Assembly: GCA_007136585.1 (NCBI GenBank)
Contig: SLGR01000113.1
Span: 1-8,497, forward strand
Origin: Candidatus Sumerlaeota bacterium
GTDB taxonomy: Bacteria; CG03; SLGR01
DNA: 8,497 nucleotides
Reading direction: 5' to 3'
Shown here: piece by piece, positions 38 to 8,497 of the stretch
Numbering within the stretch: the stretch's first letter is position 1
How the letters are laid out: every line of letters starts with the position of its first letter
Program-made: the position numbers and the translations under genes
The notes under the pieces: generated by a model
Seen by the model: the letters and a program-made list of their open reading frames with translations, nothing else
Databases searched by the model: none
Told to the model about the DNA's origin: nothing

Positions 38-319
38 ATGGTTGAGTCAAAACTTGCGCTGGGAATGATTGAAACAAAAGGTCTTATAGGTATGATAGAG
101 GCCTCGGACGCGATGGTCAAGGCGGCGCGCGTTGATCTCGCGGGGTATGAAAAAATAGGGCACGGGTATGTTACCACGATGGTCAGAGGTGAGGTCGGAG
201 CTGTGCGGGCAGCTGTCGAGGCAGGCGCTACAGCCGCGCAGAAGGTCGGGGAACTTATAGCTGTGCATGTCATCCCCAGGCCCCATGAGGATATTGAAAC
301 GATTCTGCCGCAGAAATAA
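38..319 (+). CDS. Bacterial microcompartment hexameric shell protein (BMC-H, PduA/EutM type)
   Basis: This is a single BMC-domain protein of 93 residues, the usual BMC-H length. BMC-H proteins form hexamers that tile the facets of protein-shelled organelles, and substrates cross through the central pore. The sequence follows PduA/EutM almost end to end: [11 protein letters not shown] (residues 8-18), [10 protein letters not shown] (21-30), [11 protein letters not shown] (36-46), VRGEVGAV (49-56) and the conserved [12 protein letters not shown] stretch near the C-terminus. The pore loop, KIGSG in PduA as I recall it, reads KIGHG here and places His42 at the pore constriction. The start is fixed by a strong ribosome site 7 bases upstream. 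It is the first complete gene in the window, so further shell genes and the core enzymes probably lie upstream. Family membership is certain from sequence; which metabolosome type it serves is inferred only from neighbours. Confidence 0.97.
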
Positions 320-403: not shown

Positions 404-688
404 ATGAATCCGTTTGTTCCTGTAGTTGATATTATTACGGATATTGTAGCAGAGAAAAAGATAACCCCGCGCAAAGTTCGGCGGGGCTTCAAGGCCGGTT
501 ATTTTGCCTCCCGGCCGTACCTGGATAACAGAGTATACGGCAGCGCCAGACCTGTTATTACAGAAAGGATTCTAATGGAAAAAGCGGGATCTTCCGGAGG
601 TCGGGTGAAGCTTAAACGCGGTTCGGTAATGACCCCTCTGGCAAAACTTCTGGTAGAAGAAGGAAGGGTGAGCGTGGAGTATGAGTGA
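404..688 (+). CDS. Unrecognised small protein, possibly BMC-associated
   Basis: I cannot assign this 94-residue basic protein to a named family. Two parts stand out. Residues 4-18 (FVPVVDIITDIVAEK) form a likely amphipathic helix: hydrophobic residues V7, V8, I11, I14 and V15 fall on one face and D9, D13 and E17 on the other, as in the short N-terminal encapsulation peptides that carry enzymes into microcompartments. Residues 51-93 begin VITER and contain VKLKRGSVMTPLAKLLVEEG (68-87); from memory this resembles the 'ITE...TPxAxxxL.E.gI' segment near the start of some BMC-associated proteins such as EutT-type adenosyltransferases and EutQ. The middle is rich in Arg, Tyr and Gly (KVRRGFKAGYFASRPY). 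The gene has its own ribosome site and overlaps the next start by 8 bases, so it is probably expressed and translationally coupled. There are no membrane segments and no cysteines. A shell-associated adaptor is a guess. Confidence 0.8.
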   Translation: MNPFVPVVDIITDIVAEKKITPRKVRRGFKAGYFASRPYLDNRVYGSARPVITERILMEKAGSSGGRVKLKRGSVMTPLAKLLVEEGRVSVEYE

Positions 689-1274
689 GGAATTAACACT
701 TAAAGAATATATTGATAACCTGTCTTCTTCGGCCCCGGTTCCCGGAGGAGGCCATGCGGCGGCAACTGTTTTAGGTTTCGCCTGCGGGCTTATGTTAATG
801 TCGTTAAGGATAGCTGTGCTTAAAAAAAAACCTGAAAACCGCGCTGCCCTGGAGCTTGAGATGAAGCTTTCTGAGTTGCAGAAAAGGAGTCTCAACCTTG
901 CCGAAAAAGACAGCGAATCTTTTATGGAGGTAATGAAAAACTGGAAAAACCCGGGAGAGGCTCTTGACAGGGCTCTGCTTGCCTCGGCTGAGGTGTCTTT
1001 GGATATCTCATCAGCAGCCCTTGAGCTACTGAGTCTTATTGAGATGGAGGATCTAAGGCGTTACAGTAATATAATAACAGATGTGGGGCTTGCGGTAAGT
1101 CTTGCCGGATCCGCGCACAGGGGGGGAGTTATGAATTTCAGGGTAAATATCAGGACCCTTACCACTGAATACGCGAAAACCCTTGAAAGTAAAAACCGGG
1201 AAACTGAGCTGAGGTTCAGGCGTATCTACAGCCTCCTCAGAGGCGAGGCGGAGAGACTGGCCGGGGTGGTGTGA
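681..1274 (+). CDS. Cyclodeaminase/cyclohydrolase family protein (FTCD C-terminal / FchA-like)
   Basis: This 197-residue protein is an all-helical member of the family that includes formimino-THF cyclodeaminase (FchA, and the C-terminal half of mammalian FTCD). Those enzymes release ammonia from 5-formimino-THF to give 5,10-methenyl-THF; other members act as methenyl-THF cyclohydrolases. Family marks are the P-x-PGGG turn at 19-24 (APVPGGGHAAA, with His25 where Ser is common), the D-x-E-x-F segment at 77-81, and the C-terminal block TDVGLAVSLAGSAHRGG at 133-149 followed by N152 and N156 of the NxRxN segment. Length matches stand-alone family members (~200 residues). The start overlaps the preceding gene by 8 bases, and purine-rich GGAAGGG (662-668) and GTGGAG (674-679) lie upstream. 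In purine-fermenting anaerobes this step follows formiminoglycine breakdown, which fits the adenine deaminase downstream. The family is secure; the exact substrate is not. Confidence 0.9.
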   Translation: MSEELTLKEYIDNLSSSAPVPGGGHAAATVLGFACGLMLMSLRIAVLKKKPENRAALELEMKLSELQKRSLNLAEKDSESFMEVMKNWKNPGEALDRALLASAEVSLDISSAALELLSLIEMEDLRRYSNIITDVGLAVSLAGSAHRGGVMNFRVNIRTLTTEYAKTLESKNRETELRFRRIYSLLRGEAERLAGVV

Positions 1275-1279
1275 GATAA

Positions 1280-3352
1280 ATGTCTATAAAAAGCTATAAA
1301 CTTGAGCAGGCCCCTATACCCAAGGACCCTAAAAGGCATAAGCTCAGCCTTGCGGGCGCGGAAAAGGATGTTAAAAAACTGGTCTCGAAATTAAGCAATA
1401 TAGGCGGGCGCCCTTTCCGCGCTTCGGATAAATCCTATGACTGGAGCGTATATATTTATGATTTAAAGGAGAAATCCAGGGATAAGCTGAAATCCGAGCT
1501 TGATAAGGTGATCGGCGGTGCAAGCTCAAAGAGTATCCCGGAAGAGGGTTCAGGAGAAAGTTCCGGGAGTTCTGTACTCAGTAAAAAGTACACATTTGAC
1601 AGTTTCGTGATTGGGGCAAATACCAGATTCACATATGCTGCCTGTAAGGCGGTGGCTGAGAACCCCGGTAAGAGTTATAACCCTCTTTTTATATACGGGG
1701 GGGTCGGGCTTGGAAAGACCCATCTAATGCAGGCCATAGGTAACCATGTTATTGAAAATTTTCCGGAGTATAACGTAATTTCGGAAAATATGCAGGTTTT
1801 TATAAACTCCGTTATTGAGGCCATTGAGAAAAACACGCTTAACGAATTGCGCAATAAGTATAAAAAGACCGATCTGCTTCTTATTGACGATATACAGTTT
1901 CTGGAACAGTCGGATGCGACTCAGGAAGAATTTTTCCATATTTTTAACGCTATGCATGAAGTGGGAAAACAGATTGTGATGACTTCGGATAAACCCCCAA
2001 AACAGCTCACGACTCTTGAGGACAGGCTCAAATCCAGGTTCGAGTGGGGGTTGACTACAGATGTCAAGTCTCCTAATTTTGACACAAGGAAAGCCATTCT
2101 TAAAAGAAAGGCAAACCAGGCCGGGCTTGAACTTTCAGATGATATATATAATTACATAGCCGAGAGGCTGACCTCAAATATCAGGGAGCTTGAGGGGATA
2201 CTTAACCGTATAGGGGCCTACAAGGAACTTTCGCGGGAGCCCATAACACTTGAGCTTGTAAAGGATATTATAAAAAATATTATCTCTTCCGGAGACGAGG
2301 AAGAGAAAGAAGAGAAGGAAGTTTCCGGAGAAGTTGGCGGGGAAACCCGGGAGAACCCTCCGGCGCCTTCTCAGCCTCCTTCCGCTTCACCCCCTCCCCC
2401 CCCGCAGTACCAGCCGGTTGTTCAGCCTCAGCCGCCTCCCCACCCCGCTTCCGCGCCCGGATGCGGGCGCTGCTCGGGACCTTTAAATTTTATTCATCAG
2501 TACCAGAGGTGGTATTGTCCAAGGTGCGGGGTCTATACCGAACCTATGCCTCAGTATGCTCCGCAGTACCACGCTCCTCCGCAGCAGCAGACGCCTCCGC
2601 CTCCTCCGCAGCAGCAGGCGCCTCCGCCTCCTCCGCAGCAGCAGGCGCCTCCGCCTCCTCCGCAGCAGCAGGAGCCTCCGCCTCCTCCGCAGCAGCAGAC
2701 GCCTCCGCAGGCTCCCCCGGATACTTCGGATTCAAAGCAGAAATGCGACAAGTGCGGAGCTCATGCACGGTATATAGAAAAGTACAGCAGGTTTTACTGC
2801 GACAGGTGCGGAGAATATCTTGCCGACAAAGAACCCGAGGATATACCCCCGCCGCCGACTTCAGGTAAACCTGCCTCCTCCGTAAGCGCTCCGCAGAAAC
2901 CAGACCGGGATGCAGATGCCGGGGATGGGGTTGCTTTCGAGAGTATGGTCATAGGTCAGGAGGATGCGGGGCTGAGGGAAATTAAAGCCGGTTATTTTGT
3001 CCCGGAAGGATGTGATGAGATTTTTGGAAGCACCGTTGATAAGCTCAGAAAACTGGCTGAACAGAAGAAATTTAATTTTTTCATAAGTCCGCTTTTTACA
3101 CACAGATACACCCCTGATCAGGGGCTTAATTTTGAGAAACTTGCTAAAATAGCTGCTGATAACTCGGCAGATATAGCGATAGCGATGGTGCCGCCGGAAG
3201 ATTCAGCTCTTACAGGTTCGGCGTTTACGGAAAAATTCGGGGATTTTATGCAGAAAGCTGAAGTCCCGTGCGAGATACTGTCAAGGAACAAGATAAGGGA
3301 GAGTGACGCTCTTAACCTTATGCTTGATATAGCAATATGCGCCAGAAAGTAA
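1280..3352 (+). CDS. DnaA-like AAA+ ATPase fused to two zinc ribbons and a novel C-terminal domain
   Basis: This 690-residue protein contains a clear DnaA domain III but is not a replication initiator. Residues ~20-78 look like a small beta-alpha-beta-beta-alpha domain. The AAA+ module (~104-330) has the DnaA-style lead-in YTFDSFVIG (104-112), Walker A GGVGLGKT (140-147), Walker B LLLIDD (199-204), sensor 1 TSD (235-237), the LEDRLKSRFEWGL arginine-finger box (246-258) and sensor 2 NIRELEG with R302. DnaA domain IV, the helix-turn-helix that binds DnaA boxes, is absent: after an acidic linker (~334-350) the chain becomes Pro-rich. Two zinc ribbons with identical CxxC-x14-CxxC spacing follow (Cys395/398/413/416 and Cys489/492/507/510), separated by a PPPPPQQQx repeat (~433-478). 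Residues ~550-690 alternate strand and helix, suggesting a Rossmann-like fold that I cannot name. The ATG lies 5 bases after the previous stop with only a weak ribosome site, so translation is probably coupled; its 3' end overlaps the kinase gene by 16 bases. ATP-dependent oligomerisation is likely by homology; partner and role are unknown. Confidence 0.95.
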   Translation: MSIKSYKLEQAPIPKDPKRHKLSLAGAEKDVKKLVSKLSNIGGRPFRASDKSYDWSVYIYDLKEKSRDKLKSELDKVIGGASSKSIPEEGSGESSGSSVLSKKYTFDSFVIGANTRFTYAACKAVAENPGKSYNPLFIYGGVGLGKTHLMQAIGNHVIENFPEYNVISENMQVFINSVIEAIEKNTLNELRNKYKKTDLLLIDDIQFLEQSDATQEEFFHIFNAMHEVGKQIVMTSDKPPKQLTTLEDRLKSRFEWGLTTDVKSPNFDTRKAILKRKANQAGLELSDDIYNYIAERLTSNIRELEGILNRIGAYKELSREPITLELVKDIIKNIISSGDEEEKEEKEVSGEVGGETRENPPAPSQPPSASPPPPPQYQPVVQPQPPPHPASAPGCGRCSGPLNFIHQYQRWYCPRCGVYTEPMPQYAPQYHAPPQQQTPPPPPQQQAPPPPPQQQAPPPPPQQQEPPPPPQQQTPPQAPPDTSDSKQKCDKCGAHARYIEKYSRFYCDRCGEYLADKEPEDIPPPPTSGKPASSVSAPQKPDRDADAGDGVAFESMVIGQEDAGLREIKAGYFVPEGCDEIFGSTVDKLRKLAEQKKFNFFISPLFTHRYTPDQGLNFEKLAKIAADNSADIAIAMVPPEDSALTGSAFTEKFGDFMQKAEVPCEILSRNKIRESDALNLMLDIAICARK
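2576..2710 (+). repeat. 27-bp tandem repeat encoding PPPPPQQQx, five units
   Basis: In-frame CAGCAGCAG triplets recur at exactly 27-base spacing (2582, 2609, 2636, 2663, 2690), each followed by one variable codon (Thr, Ala, Ala, Glu, Thr) and flanked by CCT/CCG proline codons. Copies are nearly identical at DNA level, including synonymous positions, which points to recent expansion by slippage or unequal recombination. The encoded segment is a flexible Pro/Gln linker between the two zinc ribbons of the DnaA-like protein. Copy number may vary between strains and could be mis-assembled with short reads. Confidence 0.93.
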
Positions 3353-5283
3353 AAAATATTAAGGAAAAAATAAGTATATCGGCATCTCTGGTTTTTTTGA
3401 TTACTGCTGCTGCGGCCGCATTATCAGAGTATATGACCGCCGCAACGGTGAGCGCTGCTCTTTCGGTAATTTTTCTGGTTGTATGCTACTCATTCAGAAA
3501 GGTGCGGATTTACCAGTTATGGGACCGGGTTTTAAGGATTACCTGCCGGAATATGGTATTTACTTCAAGTTCTTTCGGTCTCAAAAAATCCGTTGGAATA
3601 ATACTTGAAGCACTTTGCGGACTTGAGGGGATAGAAGCTGCCTGGGTTCTGCGCCGCGATAATGACGGATTCTTCAGGGTTTACTCCATCAGGGGAGCGG
3701 TCAACCATGATGATCCGGGGATAAGTGATATTAATGAATATGTGCTGGGATCGGAGAAATCCGGAAGCGTAAGTGACCCTGTTCTTACTGAGAGAATCCC
3801 GGAGCCGGTCAGTTTTCCTCTGAGGCTCAAATCCATTCTTCATATACCGCTGGCCGAGGGTGAACTGCTTACGGGCCTGGTTTCATTTGCCGCATTTAAC
3901 AAAAGGGTTTTTAAAAGGGTTGGCATTGAACGGTTTTTAACTGTTGCCGGAGTTATTGAACAGTTATATGAGAATGCTTCCAAAAGAGAGGAGCTTGAAC
4001 ATAAGGCAGCCAGATCGCGGACGGAGGTGGATTCAGCTTCGGATGAACTTACTAAAACAAATCTCAGGCTTATAAACAGGGTTAAAGAGCTTAAGTCTCT
4101 TTATGATCTTTCGGTCAGGATATTTACCGCGCAGAATGAGAAATCCGCCGCGGAAGAGGTCTTCAGCCAGGCCCGGAAAGTTATCAAAGCCGATGAGGTT
4201 GCTTATTTTAAGCTTACGGAGGATAATTTTATATATGCTTATTCCACATTTGACGAACTGGTAGGAAAGAACGCCCGTCCGGCTCTTCCGGCGGCTTTTC
4301 TTTCACATAACCGGGGAATAATTATAAGCGATGTATCCGATGTAAGCGAGCTTTCGGGATATTGCCGCCGTCTCAAACTTTCTCAGCTTATTATAGTTCC
4401 GGCAAAGGTCGGGGATGAGATACAGGGTATACTTGTAGCCGGCGCAAGGAACCACGGCAGGTTTACCGGTTCGGAACAGGAAGTGCTTTCCATGTATTCC
4501 AGCCGGCTTGCCGAGTACCTTGAGAGGAGAAGGCTTACAGACAGGATAATGCGGGATAACGCCTACCTGAAGGAACTTAACGAGGTCAAGGATAAATTTA
4601 TTGCTCTTATATCTCACGAGCTCCGCACACCGCTTACCAACCTTAAGGGCTTTACCGAGATGCTTCTTAGAGACACTTCCGGTAATCTGAACTCTGAGCA
4701 GACCGGGCATCTGGAGAGTATTATGGGTTCTTGCAATAAACTTGAAAATACGGTAAATAACATAATAGCCCTCTCAGATTTAAAAAGAGAACGCGTAAAA
4801 CTTACCCTCTCAAAAACCGACTGGAACAGGGTAATTGCAAAGGCTTGCAAAGCCTTCTCCGGGGAATTTTCTGAGAAAGGGATCGATTTAAATTTCTCGG
4901 GAGACGATAAGGTTAAAAATGTTTATGTAGACAGTGAAAGGGTATTGACCGCTTTCAATCATCTTCTCTCCAACGCTCTTAAATTCACCCGTCCCGGGGG
5001 GGTAGTGAGTATTTCTACAAGGGACTGCGGTGATTATTACGAAACTGTTGTGAAAGACTCCGGGATAGGTATAGACAACAGTATGAGGGGGAGGGTTTTT
5101 GAGAAGTTTAAACAGCTGGAGGATCCGATGACAAGGAGTTTTGAGGGCCTGGGAGTGGGGCTTGCCCTTGTTAAAGAAATTATAGAAAGCCACGGGGGCG
5201 GAATAAGTATAGAATCGCAGCCCGGCCTGGGGACAGCTGTGACGGTTGTCCTTCCTTACAGTAAAGGTACGGTTCCTGAGTAG
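3337..5283 (+). CDS. Membrane-anchored sensor histidine kinase with two GAF-like regions
   Basis: The 648-residue protein autophosphorylates on a histidine and passes the phosphate to a response regulator. A basic N-terminus precedes two membrane helices (~12-30 and ~35-53) joined by a very short outer loop, so the sensor region is cytoplasmic. Residues ~65-210 and ~250-395 have the strand/helix pattern of GAF domains, divergent, joined by a charged coiled coil (~212-248). The kinase core is intact: HisKA with SHELRTPL and phosphoacceptor H427, N-box with N546 (NHLLSNALKF), G1 DSGIG (574-578), F-box FEKF (588-591) and G2 GLGVGL (604-609). There is no extracellular sensor domain and no receiver fused at the end. 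The ATG lies inside the end of the DnaA-like gene (16-base overlap) without a visible Shine-Dalgarno sequence, implying translational coupling. The receiver gene 53 bases downstream is the probable partner. The input signal is unknown; GAF domains bind small cytosolic ligands or mediate dimerisation. Confidence 0.96.
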   Translation: MRQKVKNIKEKISISASLVFLITAAAAALSEYMTAATVSAALSVIFLVVCYSFRKVRIYQLWDRVLRITCRNMVFTSSSFGLKKSVGIILEALCGLEGIEAAWVLRRDNDGFFRVYSIRGAVNHDDPGISDINEYVLGSEKSGSVSDPVLTERIPEPVSFPLRLKSILHIPLAEGELLTGLVSFAAFNKRVFKRVGIERFLTVAGVIEQLYENASKREELEHKAARSRTEVDSASDELTKTNLRLINRVKELKSLYDLSVRIFTAQNEKSAAEEVFSQARKVIKADEVAYFKLTEDNFIYAYSTFDELVGKNARPALPAAFLSHNRGIIISDVSDVSELSGYCRRLKLSQLIIVPAKVGDEIQGILVAGARNHGRFTGSEQEVLSMYSSRLAEYLERRRLTDRIMRDNAYLKELNEVKDKFIALISHELRTPLTNLKGFTEMLLRDTSGNLNSEQTGHLESIMGSCNKLENTVNNIIALSDLKRERVKLTLSKTDWNRVIAKACKAFSGEFSEKGIDLNFSGDDKVKNVYVDSERVLTAFNHLLSNALKFTRPGGVVSISTRDCGDYYETVVKDSGIGIDNSMRGRVFEKFKQLEDPMTRSFEGLGVGLALVKEIIESHGGGISIESQPGLGTAVTVVLPYSKGTVPE

Positions 5284-5309: not shown

Positions 5310-5337
5310 GGGTTTTAAAAAGAGCGGGGTTTTAAAA
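5310..5337 (+). repeat. Direct repeat pair before the response regulator
   Basis: The 11-mer GGGTTTTAAAA occurs at 5310-5320 and 5327-5337, a 17-base period, in the 53-base gap between the kinase and receiver genes. The second copy ends on the A of the start codon. GAGCGGGG between them (5322-5329) is the only ribosome-site candidate. The pair could bind a regulator or be chance in a short AT/G-rich gap. Confidence 0.6.
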
Positions 5338-5705
5338 TGAGCAGAAAGAAGATAATGATAGTAGAGGATGACCCGGTTACAGTAAAGCTGCTGAGGTTTT
5401 TACTGGAGAAAAGCGGGTATGAAGTAGTCAGCAAATCTAACGGTCTGGCTGCTGTGGAGTCTGTGGAAGATGAGATGCCGGATCTGATTCTTATGGATGT
5501 AATGATGCCGGAAATGGATGGAATAGAAGCTACCGGAAAGATTAAAAAAAATCCCAGAGTGTCCGGTATACCTATCTTTTTTCTCTCTGCGCTCGGGCAG
5601 GAGATGGAGGTTATAAAGGGACTCCAGTCGGGGGCCGAAGGGTATCTTGTAAAACCTTTTGATTCACGGTCTCTGCTTAAGCAGATAGAGGATAAACTTG
5701 CCTGA
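5337..5705 (+). CDS. Single-domain response regulator (CheY-like receiver)
   Basis: This 122-residue protein is one complete receiver domain with no DNA-binding or enzymatic output. All functional residues are present: acidic pair D11/D12 that binds Mg2+ (VEDDP), phosphoacceptor D54 (LILMDVMMPEMDG), switch Ser84 (FLSA) and Lys106 in the KPF motif. It follows the histidine kinase by 53 bases and is the obvious phosphate acceptor. With no output domain it must act by binding another protein or by relaying phosphate. The other genes here offer the DnaA-like ATPase as one conceivable partner, but nothing in the sequence proves that. Start at ATG 5337 gives a standard receiver N-terminus (SRKKIMIVEDD). 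Identity as a receiver is secure; its target is not. Confidence 0.97.
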   Translation: MSRKKIMIVEDDPVTVKLLRFLLEKSGYEVVSKSNGLAAVESVEDEMPDLILMDVMMPEMDGIEATGKIKKNPRVSGIPIFFLSALGQEMEVIKGLQSGAEGYLVKPFDSRSLLKQIEDKLA

Positions 5706-5746: not shown

Positions 5747-7786
5747 ATGCCGATAATAAATTCAGAAAACGGAAGTATCGTCAAGAATTACACCGCGGAA
5801 GAACTTGTTGAAAAAGCGGCTATGATGAGGGCGTATAACATGATAGCCATCACCGCAGCCGGTTCGGGGCATCCCGGAGGCACACTTTCCATAATGGATA
5901 TAACTGCTGCGCTTTATCTAAAGGTTGCCTCTCACGACCCGCGGCACCCCGGATGGGACGGAAGGGACAGAATTTTCTGGTCGGCCGGGCATAAGGCGCC
6001 GGCCCTTTACGCCGCCTTGGGGGCCTCCGGGTATTTTCCCATTAAGGAGATGGTTAAGCTCAGGAAGCTTGGCTCCGGTTTTGAGGGACATCCGAACAGG
6101 CTTAAACTCCCCGGTATTGAGATGTCTACCGGTTCTCTGGGGCAGGGACTTGGGATCGCTGCGGGCTCGGCCCTGAACGCGAAACAGTCGGGAAAAGGGT
6201 ACAGGGTTTACTGTATAATGGGGGACGGGGAACAGAATGAGGGGTCTATATGGGAAGCCGCGATGTGCGCCGCCCACTATAAACTTGACAACCTTACGGC
6301 TGTAATTGACATGAACAAGCTCCAGATAGACGGAGCAACTGACGAAGTCATGTGCCTGGGGTGTCTTGCGGAAAAATACAGGGCTTTCAGGTGGAACGTG
6401 ATAGAGATAGACGGTCACGATATGCCTCAGATACTGGATGCGTTTGAAAAGGCCCGCTTACATAAAGGTTCTCCCACTGTAATTATCGCTGATACAGTTA
6501 AGGGGAAAGGGGTATCCTATGCAGAAGGTGTAGTGGGGTATCACGGCGTAGCCCCTAAAGACGGTTTAAAGGGCCCCGAGTCCCTGGAGACGGCCCTGGA
6601 GAATATAGGGTATGAAATAAGCTCCGGAGAACTTGAGGAAATATTGCAGACAGCCTCTGATTACCAGAAAACGGTTGATGAAAAAATAACGGAAAAGATT
6701 CCGAAATTCTCCCGTGATTACTGGTGGAACTCCGGAGAGGGAATGAAGGTTGATATGGTTCCCACAAGGATGGGGTTTGGAAAGGCTCTGGAAGAGATTG
6801 GAGCCGATGAAAAAACAGTTGCTTACGGCGCGGATATATCCGGTTCAATAAAGATAGATCAGTTCTATAAGAACCATCCCGAAAGAAAGGAGCGTTTTTT
6901 CAGTGTTGGGATAGCCGAACAGAATATGATACAGGCAGCCTGCGGTATGGCGGCGGAGGGTCGGATCCCTTTTGTCGGTTCATACGGGGTATTTGTTACA
7001 GGGCGCGCCTGGGACCAGATAAGGACAACCGCATGCTATAATGAGCTTGACCTGAAGATAGCCGATGCTCACGGAGGGATATCAGTAGGAGCGGACGGGG
7101 CCACTCACCAGGCTCTTGAGGAGATATCCCTTATGAGCTGTCTTCCGGGTATGAAGGTTGCCGTTCCCTGTGACTCTTTCCAGACATACAGGGCTACAAA
7201 AGAACTCGCCTATATTCCGGGCCCGGCCGTAATAAGGTATGCCAGAGAAGCCACGCCGGTGGTTACTTCAGAAAAGACCCCCTACGAATTCGGGAAAGCC
7301 AATATAGCAAGATACAGGGGCGGCAGTGAGAGCTTCCCGGAAGCCTTTGAATGGTTCCTCGCTTCGGATTATGAACCGGAAAAAGAGGATATCTCCATCA
7401 TAGCCTGCGGGCCTATGGTCCCTGAGGCGATGCGCGCGGCGGTTATATTAAAGGAGGATTTTGGCATAGAGGTCAGGATAATCGATATGCATACCGTAAA
7501 GCCGCTTGACCGTGATGCGGTGAGGAGGGCGGTTGCTGAAACCGGAGCCGTTTTAACCGCGGAGGAGCACCAGGTCGGGGGGTTCGGGAATATTGTCGCG
7601 GGAGCCGCCGCGACTGGGAAGGATTTCCCTGTTTCCTTTGTGATGGATATGGTCGGTGTTCAGGACAGATTCGGAGAAAGCGGGGAGCCTTGGGATCTGA
7701 TGGTGGATTTTGAACTGGTTGCTGAGTCAATAGCGGAAAAAGCCCGGAGCCTTATGGAAAGAAAGAAAAAATCCTTTGAGTCTTGA
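5747..7786 (+). CDS. tkt: Transketolase, full length
   Basis: Transketolase moves a two-carbon ketol unit between sugar phosphates in the non-oxidative pentose phosphate pathway, using thiamine diphosphate and a divalent metal in the cytosol. The 679-residue protein has both halves joined, unlike the two-gene form of many anaerobes. In the ThDP-binding half, GSGHPGG (39-45, H42), SAGHKAPALY (79-88, H82) and STGSLGQGLG (127-136) lead to the GDGEQNEG start of the thiamine motif (159-166) and its closing N190 (IDMNKLQ). In the pyrimidine-binding half, the catalytic glutamate is E391 in GIAEQNM, equivalent by motif to E411 of E. coli. The C-terminal domain carries EEHQVGGFGN. A strong ribosome site fixes the start. 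Its end overlaps the adenine deaminase start by 11 bases. Next to a microcompartment shell gene and a purine enzyme, a role in processing ribose phosphate released from nucleosides is plausible but inferred. Confidence 0.97.
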   Translation: MPIINSENGSIVKNYTAEELVEKAAMMRAYNMIAITAAGSGHPGGTLSIMDITAALYLKVASHDPRHPGWDGRDRIFWSAGHKAPALYAALGASGYFPIKEMVKLRKLGSGFEGHPNRLKLPGIEMSTGSLGQGLGIAAGSALNAKQSGKGYRVYCIMGDGEQNEGSIWEAAMCAAHYKLDNLTAVIDMNKLQIDGATDEVMCLGCLAEKYRAFRWNVIEIDGHDMPQILDAFEKARLHKGSPTVIIADTVKGKGVSYAEGVVGYHGVAPKDGLKGPESLETALENIGYEISSGELEEILQTASDYQKTVDEKITEKIPKFSRDYWWNSGEGMKVDMVPTRMGFGKALEEIGADEKTVAYGADISGSIKIDQFYKNHPERKERFFSVGIAEQNMIQAACGMAAEGRIPFVGSYGVFVTGRAWDQIRTTACYNELDLKIADAHGGISVGADGATHQALEEISLMSCLPGMKVAVPCDSFQTYRATKELAYIPGPAVIRYAREATPVVTSEKTPYEFGKANIARYRGGSESFPEAFEWFLASDYEPEKEDISIIACGPMVPEAMRAAVILKEDFGIEVRIIDMHTVKPLDRDAVRRAVAETGAVLTAEEHQVGGFGNIVAGAAATGKDFPVSFVMDMVGVQDRFGESGEPWDLMVDFELVAESIAEKARSLMERKKKSFES

Positions 7787-8497
7787 AGACCTGATAAGGG
7801 CAGCCGGGGGAAAGCGCAGGGCGGACCTGCTGCTTAGAAATGCCCGGGTAGTCAACGTTTTTTCCGGGGAGATAATTCCGGGAGACCTTGCTGTTTACGG
7901 GGGAAAAGTATGCGGTATGGGGAGTTACCGGGCCGAAGAGATTATTGACCTTGAGAACAGACTTCTCCTTCCCGGGTATATAGACGGCCACCTGCATATT
8001 GAAAGTTCTATGGTAACTGTACCCGAGTTTGCCGAGGCGGTTGTTCCGCTTGGCACTACTACCGTTATAATAGACCCGCACGAGATAGCAAATGTTCTCG
8101 GTCTTGACGGGATAAGGTATATGCTTGAGTCGTCAAAGCACCAGCCGCTTGATGTCTTTCTTATGCTTCCTTCGTGTGTTCCGGCAACAGAGCTTGAGAC
8201 CTCGGGGGCTGTGATAACTGCCGGGGATATATTCCCTTATCTCTCTGAGAAATGGGTGGCGGGGCTCGGAGAGGTAATGAACTTCCCCGGGGTCATTGAC
8301 TGCCGCGGCGGTGTTCTTGACAAGCTGAAACTTATCCGGGGGAAAAAAATAGACGGTCACGCTCCCGGGGTTTCCGGAAAAAAATTAAATGCCTACGTCT
8401 CCGCCGGTATAAGAAGCGATCACGAATCAACTACATTAGAAGAGGCCCGTGAAAAGCTCCGGGCGGGTATGCACGTAATGATAAGAGAGGGTACAGC
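7776..8497 (+). CDS. ade: Adenine deaminase, N-terminal part (cut by window end)
   Basis: The open frame runs to the window edge and gives ~240 residues of a family usually ~570-600 long. Adenine deaminase (amidohydrolase superfamily) converts adenine to hypoxanthine and ammonia. The N-terminal RADLLLRNARVVNVFSGEI block (residues 15-33) is typical, followed by metal-site motifs DGHLHIESSM (70-79; H72, H74), DPHEIANVLG (from D100; H102), GLGEVMN with E166, DGHAPG with H195, and SDHES with D215/H216. No ATG lies near the right place: the only upstream ATG (7754) is in the transketolase frame, and the first in-frame ATG would delete ~45 conserved residues. TTG at 7776 gives an N-terminus of the expected length and is preceded by purine-rich GGAAAGAAAG. 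It overlaps the transketolase by 11 bases, consistent with coupled translation. The C-terminal half is not visible, so intactness cannot be judged. Confidence 0.95.
   Translation, partial: MSLEDLIRAAGGKRRADLLLRNARVVNVFSGEIIPGDLAVYGGKVCGMGSYRAEEIIDLENRLLLPGYIDGHLHIESSMVTVPEFAEAVVPLGTTTVIIDPHEIANVLGLDGIRYMLESSKHQPLDVFLMLPSCVPATELETSGAVITAGDIFPYLSEKWVAGLGEVMNFPGVIDCRGGVLDKLKLIRGKKIDGHAPGVSGKKLNAYVSAGIRSDHESTTLEEAREKLRAGMHVMIREGT

Follow-up and report, generated by a model that had tools for sequence, protein, structure and literature searches.

We describe a family of DnaA-core proteins that is very probably distinct from the replication initiator and tied to a nucleoside operon. Its member studied here has 690 residues and is encoded in the window, the whole stretch of 8,497 nucleotides that was analysed. 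It joins the AAA+ core of DnaA domain III to an N-terminal and a C-terminal domain (N-domain and C-domain), and it is followed by signalling and sugar-metabolism genes (Table 1). Below, the window's family, order and phylum are those of the genome from which it comes.

Table 1 Features of the window, with residue numbers of the 690-aa protein
Feature	Position	Strand	Remarks
Whole gene: N-domain, DnaA AAA+ core, linkers with two zinc ribbons, C-domain	1280..3352	+	690 aa
N-domain, residues 1-85	1280..1534	+	common to the AAA-less partner gene of relatives
DnaA domain III AAA+ core with lid, residues 100-340	1577..2299	+	
Walker A, residues about 140-148	1697..1720	+	
S211, position of B. subtilis DnaA Lys222	1910..1912	+	never K in the DnaA-core paralogue family
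R253, box VII arginine finger	2036..2038	+	
R302, sensor 2	2183..2185	+	
Zinc ribbon 1, residues 395-416 (C395-C416)	2462..2527	+	
Pro/Gln repeat linker, residues 418-485	2531..2734	+	
Zinc ribbon 2, residues 489-510 (C489-C510)	2744..2809	+	
C-domain, residues 551-690	2930..3349	+	~140 aa, alpha/beta, near-invariant L-N-x-x-x-D motif
BMC-H shell protein	38..319	+	found with the family in the window's order only
Upstream neighbour, FTCD_C / cyclodeaminase-like	681..1274	+	
Downstream neighbour, GAF/HisKA/HATPase histidine kinase	3337..5283	+	16-base overlap with the end of the DnaA-core gene
Stand-alone receiver	5337..5705	+	122 aa, without output domain
Transketolase	5747..7786	+	
Amidohydrolase, probable adenine deaminase	7776..8497	+	runs past the window end

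Domain architecture of the 690-residue protein

In Pfam, residues 100-261 match Bac_DnaA (E 8e-66) and residues 270-330 match Hda_lid; the core (100-340) shares 44% identity with the canonical DnaA encoded in the same genome. The Walker B motif (199-204), the sensor-1 residue D237 and box VII with its arginine finger (R249-R253) were located along with Walker A and sensor 2; for Walker A, Walker B and sensor 2 the original prediction had given these positions. That prediction had also noted the loss of DnaA domain IV, and Bac_DnaA_C (PF08299) has no Pfam match in the protein. An acidic and proline-rich linker follows the core, and then come a zinc ribbon, a Pro/Gln repeat, a second zinc ribbon, another linker and the C-domain. 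The layout originally put forward stands for the core, the linker, the twin ribbons with the repeat between them and the C-terminal part; it has to be amended in that the first ~85 residues form a separate conserved domain and that the ribbons vary from member to member. The DnaC/DnaI/IstB loaders share the AAA+ superfamily with the protein, but its IstB match reaches only E 4e-8 as compared to 8e-66 for Bac_DnaA. Elsewhere in this genome, a 226-aa ORF (C57) shows the weak match that is typical of the DnaC/DnaI/IstB kind. As anticipated, the DnaA core lies in a new architecture: no named family with it was found in Pfam, NCBIfam, the PDB or the open-access literature searched.

End-to-end homologues with 52-60% identity are present in genomes of the same family and the same order. 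In addition, third codon positions show excess divergence from the closest homologue in the N-domain, the core and the C-domain alike. Because of these full-length homologues and of the third-position divergence in all three parts, we read the ORF as one real gene; an assembly chimera is ruled out, as homologues align over the whole length.

The family and the canonical initiator

The same genome contains a canonical DnaA of 461 aa (G000:C171) that matches PF00308 as well as PF08299; by inspection, the ORFs after it look like dnaN, recF and gyrB. The protein of the window is not the only DnaA of its genome, so it is not a sole derived initiator. Across the 21 carrier genomes, PF08299 never falls on a family member; a full-strength match to it lies in a DnaA of canonical size in 18 of them, and the three others (G002, G007, G013) are 66-84% complete.

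A derived or second replication initiator could be suspected from the strength of the core match, since the core alone (89-340) scores 350.4 bits against TIGR00362, the NCBIfam DnaA equivalog, whose cut-off is 343.9. We regard this reading as extremely improbable: domain IV is present in a canonical DnaA that lies next to the dnaN/recF/gyrB-like ORFs, and the window contains no match to the DnaA box TTATCCACA within one mismatch. Furthermore, unlike DnaA, the family has neither domain I nor domain IV nor the lysine of the initiator motif (B. subtilis Lys222), and it brings new N- and C-domains and a different operon.

PF08299 is also found in many of these genomes in ORFs of ~290-340 aa that have no DnaA core, for example at G000:C230:16035-16217 (in L180). 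Perhaps these are transposase-type proteins.

Residues kept and lost in the core

The Walker A K/T, Walker B DD, sensor-1 D, R249, R253 and R302 are identical in 19/19 family members and 32/32 canonical DnaAs. As the ATPase and arginine-finger residues are invariant, DnaA-type assembly is expected to survive in the family. The ATP-driven assembly originally suggested is borne out at the level of the residues required, kept in all 19 members; assembly itself is predicted from sequence.

In B. subtilis, Lys222 forms a hydrogen bond with a phosphate of the origin DNA backbone (PMC10721633). Its position is occupied by lysine in 32/32 canonical DnaAs and in 0/19 family members: it is S in the window's order (8/8), A in the other phyla (5/5) and deleted in the other class of the window's phylum (6/6). 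The base-capture residues (N187, I190, I193, R202 and E228 in B. subtilis) are for the most part retained in the window's order, with I190 changed to V in 7/8 members and R202 to S in one; in the phylum's other class they are mostly changed. An earlier reading of ours, that Lys222 loss equals no ssDNA binding, was softened since the other motif residues are largely kept in the window's order. Initiator-type DNA engagement is thus probably altered in the family, and residual ssDNA binding may remain.

Hda, a protein of ~230 aa, inserts into DnaA oligomers in RIDA. By a similar route, the AAA+ interface of the family could insert into oligomers of canonical DnaA, tying replication to nucleotide or pentose supply. 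Hda/HdaA likewise consists of a DnaA core with Hda_lid and no domain IV. The invariant arginine finger, sensor 2 and box VII fit this role, as do the lack of domain IV and of the Lys222 contact, which might be expected of a co-assembling inhibitor, the presence of a canonical DnaA in most carriers and the metabolic operon context. We nevertheless consider it unlikely. The gene is not linked to dnaA or dnaN, and the protein scores 128.5 bits, under the NCBIfam Hda cut-off of 194.8. At 690 aa, it has two extra conserved domains and linkers compared to Hda; this reading does not account for these large domains or for the partner gene described below.

Other recombinations of the DnaA core were observed as well. 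Proteins of 468-500 aa without domain IV (L178:4200-5684, minus strand; L179:4153-5655, plus strand; L053:4899-6305, minus strand) have an N-terminus that reads, by inspection, like MshEN of type II secretion/PilB proteins; two of them, in G130 and G267, retain the initiator lysine. A ~1750-aa ORF in G039 (L052:3512-8752, minus strand) contains two DnaA-core-like segments.

Distribution, partner gene and phylogeny

Profiles of the C-domain and the N-domain were searched over a 290-genome sample. The former is positive in 21 of the 290 genomes and the latter in 19, all within those 21. By phylum, the C-domain is found in 16/16, 5/6, 3/3 and 5/5 of the genomes examined from four small phyla (29/30), the sole genome missing it being 76% complete; elsewhere in the 290-genome sample there is none. 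Viral contigs contain DnaA cores, and the C-domain was not found in them.

All fusions examined keep the order N-domain, DnaA core, linker, C-domain; in G082 and G267 the gene is broken across contigs inside the repetitive linker. The 690-aa protein has the N- and C-domains on one polypeptide within the conserved operon. In many genomes, a partner gene without AAA+ core and without zinc ribbon lies directly or closely upstream, encoding an N-domain joined to a C-domain by a low-complexity linker. Its N and C parts are homologous to those of the fusion (hhalign 98.0% and 97.7%). A search with the C-domain profile found no partner gene in the assembly of the window's genome.

Members from the window's order carry two zinc ribbons and those from the phylum's other class carry one, as does that of G223; ribbons are lacking in G082, G130, G267 and G252. 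The suggestion that the ribbons set the specificity of the protein does not agree with members that carry 0, 1 or 2 of them. The ribbon reads as a mobile module. Its template, CX2C...YXRWYCX2C, is also seen in a Bathyarchaeota contig (L004), the only match in a scan of named genomes, and several times over in a 716-aa protein from G045 (L051:4999-7149, minus strand).

A DnaA-core tree had been proposed as a check on the family. With long branches left out, the 19 sampled family cores form one clade, set apart with an ultrafast bootstrap of 95 and an SH-aLRT of 98; therefore, the family is not a recent chimera. The AU test does not reject a tree in which the family and the canonical DnaAs of these phyla share a single origin (p 0.25). 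Ancient duplication followed by vertical inheritance is possible.

N- and C-domains

Neither domain has relatives that could be found in Pfam or the PDB: PDB profile searches gave chance-level matches only, the best for the N-domain covering a small stretch of a 1343-residue chain that is repetitive (entry 8h2i). They are not the end domains of DnaA either. In hhalign, the N-domain against DnaA domain I and the C-domain against domain IV each reach 0.2%, with split-half controls at 99.9% and 100%, respectively.

Structures were taken from single-sequence AlphaFold models made without alignment, with a mean pLDDT of 58 for the N-domain and 55 for the C-domain. In fold searches (Foldseek/VIA), the low-confidence C-domain model matches IF3-C, Alba-like and methyltransferase Rossmann folds, which are tied with Z at most 7.1; the N-domain model, also of low confidence, weakly matches ferredoxin and KH folds. 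These tentative matches were given no weight in our verdict. An Argonaute MID-like C-domain, guessed from the order of strands and helices, is absent from the lists of PDB sequence and fold-search matches and was dropped, though not disproved; no Piwi protein for comparison was found in 61 relatives.

The fold hints touch on another potential role, a transcription or RNA regulator whose ATP-dependent oligomers would grip DNA or RNA through the N-domain, the C-domain and any zinc ribbons. The weak KH and ferredoxin-like hints for the N-domain and the IF3-C/Alba-like ones for the C-domain point in this direction, together with the base-capture residues mostly kept in the window's order. However, these hints stem from models of low confidence and tie with methyltransferase folds, several members are devoid of ribbons, and Lys222 is lost everywhere. 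We judge such a regulator to be improbable, though conceivable.

Genomic neighbourhood

In 20 loci, the recurrent neighbours are rpiB, tpiA, deoC, adenine-deaminase-like, deoB and purine-phosphorylase genes. The amidohydrolase at the end of the window is presumably an adenine deaminase, judging by its family. Transketolase lies downstream in 16 of the loci, and three of the remaining four contigs end just past the gene. A receiver gene follows in 17/20; those read by Pfam are stand-alone, with no output domain. One of the four phyla (G130, G267) has neither receiver nor kinase next to the gene. The upstream side additionally carries PilT-like and gcvH genes in G130, G267 and G252.

Two further observations concern the immediate surroundings of the gene. 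The PilT-like gene, a T2SSE ATPase, and the GcvH gene adjoin the DnaA-core gene in two phyla (L100, L099, L102). A conserved ORF of ~94 aa without Pfam match lies upstream of the FTCD_C gene (404-688 of the window) and recurs in L035, L036, L037, L039 and L040.

In the window's order, the gene is found among BMC, EutN, DeoC and RpiB genes, in a locus resembling the SPU (sugar phosphate utilisation) microcompartment loci defined in PMC8217296; the main texts of that work and of PMC4207490 do not mention DnaA. This placement among BMC-H, EutN, DeoC and RpiB genes is what speaks for the original idea of an ATP-driven assembly scaffold of a bacterial microcompartment. Unlike the SPU loci, however, the DnaA-like gene is not confined to BMC surroundings: in the phylum's other class, in the other three phyla and in G001, a genome from the window's own family, the same gene lies in the same sugar/nucleoside operon with no BMC genes nearby. 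We therefore see very little chance of a microcompartment scaffold. Since BMC genes accompany the gene in the window's order only and the ribbons number 0, 1 or 2, neither defines the family. What the loci have in common throughout is, in our reading of their gene content, the breakdown of ribose/deoxyribose phosphates and nucleosides rather than the microcompartment.

Proposed role and implications

Our preferred explanation overall, held with a little less than even confidence, is that of a non-initiator DnaA paralogue reused around nucleoside catabolism. The paralogue would have arisen once, probably before the four phyla split, and become fixed in a ribose-phosphate/nucleoside operon. ATP binding would drive head-to-tail, DnaA-type assembly of the family protein, and the AAA-less N/C partner, where present, would tune or join the oligomer. 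The assembly would then display the N- and C-domains, which could bind a partner, a ligand or nucleic acid. The ATP-switched oligomer would regulate the operon or act as its effector, and it may supply the output that the neighbouring receiver lacks. As an input, the stand-alone receiver is plausible because neither it nor the kinase has an output domain; in the phylum of G130 and G267 it is not an obligatory one, as it is absent at that locus. We put this ATP-switched mechanism forward as a tentative possibility. A more ambitious version, in which a DnaA-type ATP filament left the origin in the ancestor of the four phyla, became the kinase-receiver output tuned by the partner and couples nucleoside catabolism to gene expression or replication, seems to us unlikely in its entirety.

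These results bear on annotation. With a score above the equivalog threshold, a family member would be named 'chromosomal replication initiator protein DnaA' by automatic pipelines; DnaA phylogenies and oriC predictions of these candidate phyla may consequently take the wrong gene.

The usual view of the DnaA AAA+ core is that it is devoted to starting replication, apart from minor derivatives like Hda. The paralogue described here is deeply conserved and almost universal in four phyla; it retains the assembly machinery but has neither of the end domains of DnaA and lacks one DNA contact of the initiator. The family makes it testable what a DnaA-type oligomer does away from the origin.
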